Positions 25,784 through 27,209 of a DNA stretch of 64,000 nucleotides are shown piece by piece. Location of the stretch: the NCBI GenBank assembly GCA_021832345.1, contig JAKBKY010000001.1:272385-336384 (forward strand). Direction: 5' to 3'. The stretch's first letter is position 1. Each line of letters opens with the position of its first letter. The stretch is from a bacterium (lineage in GTDB: Bacteria > Vulcanimicrobiota > Vulcanimicrobiia > Vulcanimicrobiales > Vulcanimicrobiaceae). The notes under the pieces were generated by a model that did not search any database, had not been told where the DNA came from, and saw only the letters and a program-made list of their open reading frames with translations. Both the position numbers and the translations under genes were made by a program.

Positions 25784-25814
25784 TTGACAGCCCCCCCTGG
25801 GCGTGTGCTACACT
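25784..25814 (+). promoter_or_regulatory. Promoter of infC-rpmI-rplT
   Basis: TTGACA (25784-25789) and the extended -10 TGC-TACACT (25806-25814) with a 19-nt spacer. Transcription from about 25821 would give a 160-nt leader before the infC start, containing the terminator-like hairpin. Confidence 0.6.
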
Positions 25815-25886
25815 CGGCGAGCCGAAGTAGCCCTCCGTTCGCGGAGCGCTCACCGGATGCCGAGAGGCGATCCGGTCTTCTCGTGA

Positions 25887-25942
25887 GGAGCCGCCGGCCG
25901 GTCTCCGTCGCGATGGGGTCGCTTCGGCGGTCCTTTTTTTTT
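25887..25942 (+). terminator. Attenuator-type terminator in the infC leader
   Basis: The stem GGA-G-CCGCCG (25887-25896) / CGGCGG-TCC (25925-25933), with one bulged G and an inner GCGA/TCGC hairpin, is followed immediately by nine T residues (25934-25942). It lies before the infC start, so it should stop transcription prematurely unless disrupted. This is the layout of the L20-controlled infC leaders of Gram-positives; control by L20 is inferred. Confidence 0.68.
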
Positions 25943-25967
25943 CGCTTCGGCATAGAGGAGACTTTGC

Positions 25968-25985
25968 ATGGGAGTTCGGCCATAG
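25968..25985 (+). promoter_or_regulatory. Five-codon mini-ORF overlapping the infC start
   Basis: ATG GGA GTT CGG CCA TAG encodes MGVRP. It has the best-placed ribosome binding site here (GAGGAG, 7 nt before ATG 25968), and its stop TAG (25983-25985) overlaps the proposed infC AUA start (25982-25984) by 2 nt. This would favour termination-reinitiation onto infC. Confidence 0.45.
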
Positions 25986-26635
25986 CTCGACCGCTTCGCA
26001 TCAACGATCAGATCCGCATCCGCACGGTGCGCGTCATCGACGATGACGGCCAACAGCTAGGCATCATGGCGACCGAGGATGCACTTGCCCAGGCGCGCAC
26101 CGCAGGGCTCGACTTGATCGAAATTTCGCCGACGGCGCAACCCCCGGTCTGTCGCATCGGGGACTTCGGCCGACTGAAATACGAGCAAGCCAAAAAAGAC
26201 AAGGATGCCCGTAAGAAACAGCGGCATGTGGAACTGCGGGAAGTCAAGCTTCGACCGAAGATCGAGATACACGATTACGAAACCAAGGCCCGCATGGCGG
26301 AGCGCCTGCTGATCGACGGAAGCAAGATCAAAGTGACGATCATGTTTCGAGGGCGCGAGATCACCTACACGAGCTTTGGAAAGCGCTTACTCGATCGCAT
26401 GGCCGAAGATATGGAACCACTGGCGATCGTCGAGCGAGAAGCGCGTCTCGAAGGCCGCAACATGTTCATGATCTTGGCACCCCGCGTGGCGCCGACCGGT
26501 CCGCCGAAATACTCGCTTCATCGTGACGCCGAGAAGGACCATGCAACCACCGTCGCCGCGACGACGGCCACAGACCCCGAAGATGTTACAGATCCCGCAG
26601 ATACGGATGACACGAAGGAGCAGACCAGTGCCTAA
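25982..26635 (+). CDS. infC: Translation initiation factor IF-3
   Basis: IF-3 keeps 30S subunits free and checks the start codon-anticodon pair. The protein begins ARPLRINDQIRIRTVRVIDD and carries the two-domain fold: N-terminal LGIMATEDALAQARTAGLDLIEISPTAQPPVCRIGDFGRLKYEQ, then helix KKDKDARKKQRHVELREVKLRPKIEIHDYETK and the C-terminal GSKIKVTIMFRGREITYTSFGKRLLDRM. The acidic tail after KYSLH (to TKEQTSA) is longer than usual. I place the start at ATA 25982, since GGGAG lies 7 nt upstream and this gives the usual IF-3 N-terminus; no in-frame ATG fits. TTG 25964 is the alternative, with its ribosome binding site too close (3 nt). It overlaps rpmI by 8 nt. Confidence 0.93.
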   Translation: MARPLRINDQIRIRTVRVIDDDGQQLGIMATEDALAQARTAGLDLIEISPTAQPPVCRIGDFGRLKYEQAKKDKDARKKQRHVELREVKLRPKIEIHDYETKARMAERLLIDGSKIKVTIMFRGREITYTSFGKRLLDRMAEDMEPLAIVEREARLEGRNMFMILAPRVAPTGPPKYSLHRDAEKDHATTVAATTATDPEDVTDPADTDDTKEQTSA

Positions 26636-26834
26636 GATTCGAACCCACCGCGGTACCGCCAAGCGCGTCAAGGTGACGGGCAACGGGAAAGTGCTGCATC
26701 GCCACCAGTTTAGCGGATGCGGGCATATTCTGAGCAAGAAGACGCGCAAGCGCAAGCGCAACTTCCGCAAGGATCAGCCGACGTTCAAAGGCGATCTCAA
26801 GCGCCTGGCTCCAACGATTCCGTACTTGGTATAA
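26628..26834 (+). CDS. rpmI: Ribosomal protein bL35
   Basis: A 68-residue basic protein of the large subunit: VPKIRTHRGTAKRVKVTGNGKV, then HILSKKTRKRKRN and LKRLAPTIPYLV, the standard L35 pattern. It starts at GTG 26628 with AAGGAG 7 nt upstream, inside the end of infC, so translation is coupled. It is followed by rplT after 15 nt in the classic infC-rpmI-rplT order. Confidence 0.96.
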   Translation: MPKIRTHRGTAKRVKVTGNGKVLHRHQFSGCGHILSKKTRKRKRNFRKDQPTFKGDLKRLAPTIPYLV

Positions 26835-26849
26835 GGAGGGCTTCAACAG

Positions 26850-27209
26850 ATGGCACGCATTAAACGCGGCGTCAGCGGTCTTAAGCACCGCCGCAAAGTC
26901 ATGAAGCTCGTTAAGGGCTTCCGCGCAGCGCGCCGGCGCAACTATCGCGTTGCAAACGAGGCGCTCCTCAAGTCGCTCGCCTATGCCTTCCGCGATCGTC
27001 GCGTTCGTAAGCGCGACTTCCGCTCGCTCTGGATCAGCCGCATTAACGCCGCGGTCCGGCGCGAAGGGCTCTCGTACTCGCTCTTCATGCACGGCTTGAA
27101 GAAGTCCGGCGTCACGCTGAATCGCAAGGCCCTGGCCGACCTGGCCGTCCGCGACAGCCAAGCGTTTGGCTCACTCCTGTCGCTGGCAAAACAAGCCGTC
27201 CAGAAGTAA
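26850..27209 (+). CDS. rplT: Ribosomal protein bL20
   Basis: A 119-residue early assembly protein of the 50S subunit, also the usual autoregulator of this operon. Sequence: [78 protein letters not shown], typical L20. An AAGGAGGG ribosome binding site lies upstream of ATG 26850. The gene converges with the Nudix hydrolase, 6 nt apart. Confidence 0.97.

Follow-up and report, generated by a model that had tools for sequence, protein, structure and literature searches.

An AUA start codon at infC in an Eremiobacterota genome, and candidate leader reading frames ending on the overlapping UAG among its relatives

That initiation factor IF3 holds itself in check through an unfavourable start codon is a textbook case of feedback, and the infC leader of Bacillus subtilis that interacts with L20 is represented in Rfam as RF00558. 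To our knowledge there is no precedent for a leader ORF on Escherichia coli infC. The E. coli gene resembles the locus described here in the non-AUG start of its IF3 gene, in its Shine-Dalgarno sequence and in the order infC-rpmI-rplT; it differs in that AUA, not AUU, is found here, in that an attenuator RNA stands in front, and in the leader ORFs of some relatives. In Staphylococcus aureus, retapamulin ribosome profiling (Ribo-Ret) shows initiation of infC at AUA, and autoregulation is proposed; the passages on it mention no overlapping leader ORF (PMC13009471). An AUA at infC is therefore not new.

Two further systems provide partial likenesses. Termination-reinitiation at overlapping stop and start codons has been demonstrated experimentally in E. 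coli and Haloferax volcanii for ordinary ATGA and TGATG gene pairs (PMC6728339), in which, as here, the upstream stop overlaps the downstream start and a Shine-Dalgarno sequence often lies near the junction. Here, by contrast, AUA or AUU serves as the downstream start (AUAG or AUUAG), the upstream ORF is just 5-14 codons long and, in some of the relatives, the upstream start is also non-AUG. The L20-interacting leader of B. subtilis (PMC6097659) likewise places a structured attenuator and an intrinsic terminator before infC-rpmI-rplT, whereas the RNA found here has no Rfam match at the gathering threshold and its antiterminator would come from the extreme 5' end of the transcript.

The start codon of infC

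The window analysed is a stretch of 64,000 nucleotides from an Eremiobacterota genome. The genes of the operon and the elements around the start of infC are as follows.

25955-25960, + strand: first Shine-Dalgarno sequence, GAGGAG, spaced for the mini-ORF ATG (7-nt gap to ATG 25968-25970); duplex energy -8.8 kcal/mol
25968-25985, + strand: mini-ORF ATG GGA GTT CGG CCA TAG (MGVRP), read from the sequence; not conserved among relatives
25970-25974, + strand: second Shine-Dalgarno sequence, GGGAG, inside the mini-ORF and spaced for AUA 25982; read from the sequence
25982-26635, + strand: infC (IF3), AUA start at 25982-25984 and stop at 26633-26635; Pfam IF3_N and IF3_C
26631-26834, + strand: rpmI (L35), second gene of the operon; Pfam Ribosomal_L35p
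26850-27209, + strand: rplT (L20), third gene of the operon; Pfam Ribosomal_L20

The coordinates of the ATG, GAGGAG, MGVRP, TAG (25983-25985), ATA and GGGAG given by the first-pass annotation were all verified in the sequence. The ATA is followed by ARPLRIN and is separated from GGGAG by a 7-nt gap, hence infC shares with the genes whose non-AUG start is discriminated by IF3 both a start codon other than AUG, GUG or UUG and a Shine-Dalgarno sequence at working distance. The anti-Shine-Dalgarno sequence, GGATCACCTCCTTTCTA, was read in the family member G008, whose infC also has ATA; a 16S search in the window's own genome found none. The 23S rRNA gene of the same genome is reported as three adjacent pieces (G000:C5:97833-100001).

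Upstream, the infC frame stays open as far as 25784 and includes an in-frame ATG, at 25913; the start can therefore not be fixed on the AUA from the window by itself, and a comparison with relatives is required. It had been claimed that no in-frame ATG or GTG fits the IF3 N-terminus. The ATG at 25913 is in frame, but it is not conserved, has no Shine-Dalgarno sequence and falls within the attenuator and terminator hairpin. The in-frame TTG at 25964 is only 3 nt from the Shine-Dalgarno sequence.

IF3 was detected in 112 of 118 related genomes and in 86 of 99 genomes of the family. In the window's own family (f1), 83 of the 84 loci have ATA at the position homologous to ATA 25982 and one has ATC; the codon is ATC in all three loci of a family of the same order (f2), ATT in all 14 of another family of the same class (f3), and mostly ATT in the other classes of the phylum. 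In 58 of 83 f1 loci the 60 nt preceding the infC start hold no in-frame ATG, GTG or TTG. Because the ATA is conserved and most of these loci lack an ordinary in-frame start over that distance, the AUA start is real and goes beyond chance, and an indel or assembly error near it is ruled out by the conservation across relatives. Judged by this comparison of sequences, infC of the genome starts at AUA 25982, and the first-pass annotation was right to place it there. The alignment of infC starts that it called for gave a divided answer, as the ATA is conserved and the ATG mini-ORF is not. Of the 83 family loci scored, 59 have a proximal Shine-Dalgarno sequence at the position of GGGAG 25970-25974.

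Two observations concern the codon elsewhere. In locus L058 the infC start lies one codon earlier and an additional Ala codon is present (ATA GCA GCT), and both the ATA and the overlapping TAG are retained. ATA is also the usual infC start in an unrelated order, that of genome G144 (sampled loci L225-L254), where it adjoins a strong AGGAGG.

A structured RNA in front of the operon

Between a promoter-like sequence and the first Shine-Dalgarno sequence lies a candidate transcription attenuator.

25784-25814, + strand: promoter-like TTGACA (25784-25789) and TACACT (25809-25814), separated by 19 nt and preceding the leader; by eye
25817-25941, + strand: structured 5' leader RNA of infC-rpmI-rplT, candidate transcription attenuator; covariance model R1, 1.1e-20
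25821-25830, + strand: GCCGAAGUAG, proposed 5' antiterminator strand, with its complement in the terminator at about 25919-25928; pairs kept in 97% of cells across 35 leaders
25852-25876, + strand: near-invariant hairpin ACCGGA..UCCGGU of the leader; alignment A1
25915-25942, + strand: intrinsic terminator hairpin and T run, with 12 nt from its end to the first Shine-Dalgarno sequence; terminator scan, aligned in relatives

Similar promoter-like boxes are visible by eye in many relatives; a consensus promoter scan allowing spacers of 16-18 nt did not report the TTGACA/TACACT pair, the spacer of which is 19 nt. The covariance model, built from 35 family leaders, has one strong match in each of 65 f1 genomes, adjoining infC by coordinates, and a weaker match in four f2 genomes; in G034 the assembly is broken and the match is on a contig other than that of infC. 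Eleven pairs were changed on both sides, with 61 such cells against 20.2 in shuffles, a value above all 500 shuffles, and the signal was lost when partners were slid. These covarying helices upstream of the operon place the element among structured cis-regulatory RNAs. The leader's 5' end, GCCGAAGYAG, can pair with the terminator sequence YUGCUUCGGC, and this pairing is the proposed antiterminator. The sequence CGCTTCGGC occurs twice in the window, in the terminator (25920-25928) and just past the T run (25943-25951); the latter copy might pair with the 5' GCCGAAG as well.

Searches of the window and ten relatives gave no Rfam match at the gathering score and chance-level matches only at E up to 10; by the curated covariance models, the element is neither the Rfam L20 leader nor any other described ribosomal-protein leader. 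The B. subtilis case makes L20 the obvious candidate for the effector (PMC6097659). That the leader RNA mimics 23S rRNA was considered and set aside, local alignment with shuffles being not significant, and no consistent hairpin was found in f1 or f3 in a search for local folding that sequesters the infC start. Members of f3 (L075, L066, L071, L077, L079, L080 and others) have a different conserved infC leader RNA with its own terminator, beginning about 160-224 nt before infC, with the motifs CUACCCUUCGCACC..GGCGCC..GAAAGACGAAGGC..GGGUAGCC and a terminator, and absent from Rfam. In L021, L028, L030, L032, L040 and L042, which represent several genera, an extra, sometimes repetitive, insert lies between the terminator and the infC Shine-Dalgarno sequence.

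Leader reading frames and the overlapping UAG

A distal Shine-Dalgarno sequence followed by a leader ORF is present in 12 of the 14 f3 genomes, representing eight of nine genera; in L079 the sequence is a weak GAGG and was placed by hand, and genus g46 has a direct Shine-Dalgarno sequence and no leader. The core of the distal sequence ends 29-49 nt upstream of infC, and at an aligned spacing of 6 or 8 from it stands ATT, ATC, ATA or ACG, and never NTG. The ORFs opened by these codons are 8-14 codons long and end at a UAG overlapping the infC AUU (AUUAG). Leader starts at -22, -31, -34, -37 and -40 share one register, such that lengths differ by multiples of 3 only: codon identity, Shine-Dalgarno spacing and length all vary, while register and near-cognate class are constant. 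The leader peptides are not conserved in sequence, and between the close species L066 and L067 differences in the leader fall at second codon positions. In seven of the 14 genomes infC has no Shine-Dalgarno sequence of its own.

In shuffled sequence, the probability of such a non-AUG near-cognate codon is 0.06-0.09 per genus, and eight of eight leader-bearing genera are positive; since the genera are related, these probabilities must not be multiplied as independent. The background rate of such codons elsewhere inside f3 leaders is 5/92. The observed start codons, Shine-Dalgarno positions, registers and overlap suggest that the f3 leader is probably translated and coupled to infC by reinitiation, with gating by IF3 also probable.

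A similar layout occurs in g19, a genus of the window's own family, in six of seven sampled loci. It is clear in four, where the leader starts with ATC or ACG, and weak in two (L036 and L179), where it starts with ATT; L024 has no leader. The overlap in g19 is AUAG and the register differs from that of f3, and in both groups the leader tracks the UAG. Direct Shine-Dalgarno sequences are found throughout f2 and at infC in 16 of 16 loci from the other classes of the phylum. Leader-like patterns appeared in 1/16 of these control loci and in 5/54 from other phyla (about 6-9%). Mapped onto the IF3 tree, the leader requires four changes, of which well-supported branches impose two or more, and so its distribution is not a single simple inheritance. 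An apparently independent ATG mini-ORF seen in another phylum (L140, L147 and L150) was treated as chance, because among the 30 loci examined in its order, out of 70 matches, only these three close genomes have it. With leaders of both f3 and g19 ending on an overlapping UAG, the first-pass idea of a mini-ORF delivering ribosomes to the infC start is, as a general proposal drawn from sequence, better founded than the window alone could show.

The window's own mini-ORF is a different matter, and conservation lends the idea no support there. Its stop, TAG 25983-25985, overlaps the infC AUA as AUAG (25982-25985), as expected of a termination-reinitiation pair, but this TAG is automatic, because ATA followed by GCN (Ala) always contains TAG one base on. 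An ATG with a usable Shine-Dalgarno sequence is kept in no relative, as opposed to the non-AUG leaders kept in f3 and g19. Given a distal Shine-Dalgarno sequence, a near-cognate start in the UAG register arises with P = 0.21 in shuffled sequence. Together with the automatic TAG, this means that the mini-ORF by itself is not beyond chance. Among 77 unique sequences of family leaders, upstream ATGs at -25 to -3 number 17 in the UAG register, and 1 and 0 in the other registers; those in the UAG register are clumped by genus and mostly too near the Shine-Dalgarno sequence for use. Selection against AUGs that do harm in the remaining registers would explain this bias. The mini-ORF cannot be called functional from its sequence and could be chance; it may well be translated, and could then feed ribosomes to the AUA, without an IF3-gated first step.

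A possible pair of disfavoured starts in series

AUA is a start codon that IF3 disfavours, and through it the factor most likely restrains its own production, by analogy with the AUU of E. coli and with what is proposed for the AUA of S. aureus (PMC13009471). The leaders would add to this. Across the class, the non-AUG start of infC overlaps a UAG on which some lineages end a short leader ORF; in f3 and g19 a strong leader Shine-Dalgarno sequence precedes a leader start (AUU, AUC, AUA or ACG) that is itself disfavoured by IF3. When IF3 is scarce, ribosomes would initiate the leader, terminate at the UAG atop the infC start and reinitiate on infC; when it is abundant, the leader start and the infC start would both fail. 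The window has an AUG version of its own (MGVRP), which encloses a second Shine-Dalgarno sequence; since the first start is AUG, at most the coupling would be left and not the first gate. We lean slightly towards this explanation as a whole, namely AUA-started infC under IF3 feedback, coupled UAG-ending leaders in f3 and g19, and a private AUG version in the window. Imperfect pairing with initiator tRNA is the property tested by IF3 (PMC10158994). As the leader starts of f3 and g19 pair imperfectly, and the infC start is of the same class, two gates in series are the simplest reading. That Eremiobacterota infC can be under two IF3-disfavoured starts in series and be reached by reinitiation, the window being a lineage with an AUG first start and thus one gate released, is a proposition on which we are evenly divided.

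The most serious alternative, to which we assign somewhat less than an even chance, is that only the AUA start matters. The window's AUG mini-ORF would then be a chance by-product of ATA followed by GCN, with AUGs in the UAG register tolerated since they end at once and others purged. The 17:1:0 distribution of ATGs and their mostly unusable spacing, the lack of conservation of the window's ATG, the shuffled-sequence probability and the AUA's possession of its own GGGAG are all consistent with this, but it does not account for the strength and ideal spacing of GAGGAG, nor for the conservation of the layout with non-AUG starts in g19 and f3. It is unlikely, if conceivable, that the distal Shine-Dalgarno sequences of f3 and g19 (and that at 25955-25960) are standby sites from which 30S subunits slide to the infC start, no leader being translated; the infC start would lie within reach of a loaded 30S and the leader peptides are not conserved, yet this leaves unexplained why all eight f3 genera with the distal sequence retain a suitably spaced near-cognate codon and leader lengths that differ by multiples of 3.

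Programmed frameshifting, joining the leader frame to infC so that the leader forms the true N-terminus, would exploit the meeting of the two frames at a stop codon, as in prfB. We consider it very improbable: f3 would require slippage of +1 but f1 of -1, none of the final sense codons (CAT, GAT, AAT and CCA) is slippery, and in most other taxa the IF3 N-terminus aligns at a non-AUG codon with its own Shine-Dalgarno sequence. Least probable of all, and barely worth entertaining, is a start at the in-frame TTG 25964 or ATG 25913, or an indel that hides an ordinary ATG: the frame is indeed open upstream, but the positions of both codons and the f1 comparison argue against it.

Returning to IF3-gated leaders coupled to infC, no report of a leader ORF at infC was found in the open-access library searched. 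The AUA start itself is of a known kind; it is the non-AUG leaders of the relatives that would be a new form of IF3 autoregulation. If these leaders do start at codons other than AUG, GUG or UUG, they constitute a case of such leader translation in bacteria, and two gates in series, if true, could sharpen the response of the IF3 feedback. The attenuator RNA is a probable new family of infC-operon leaders. Gene finders that ignore ATA and ATT starts will misplace infC across these phyla.
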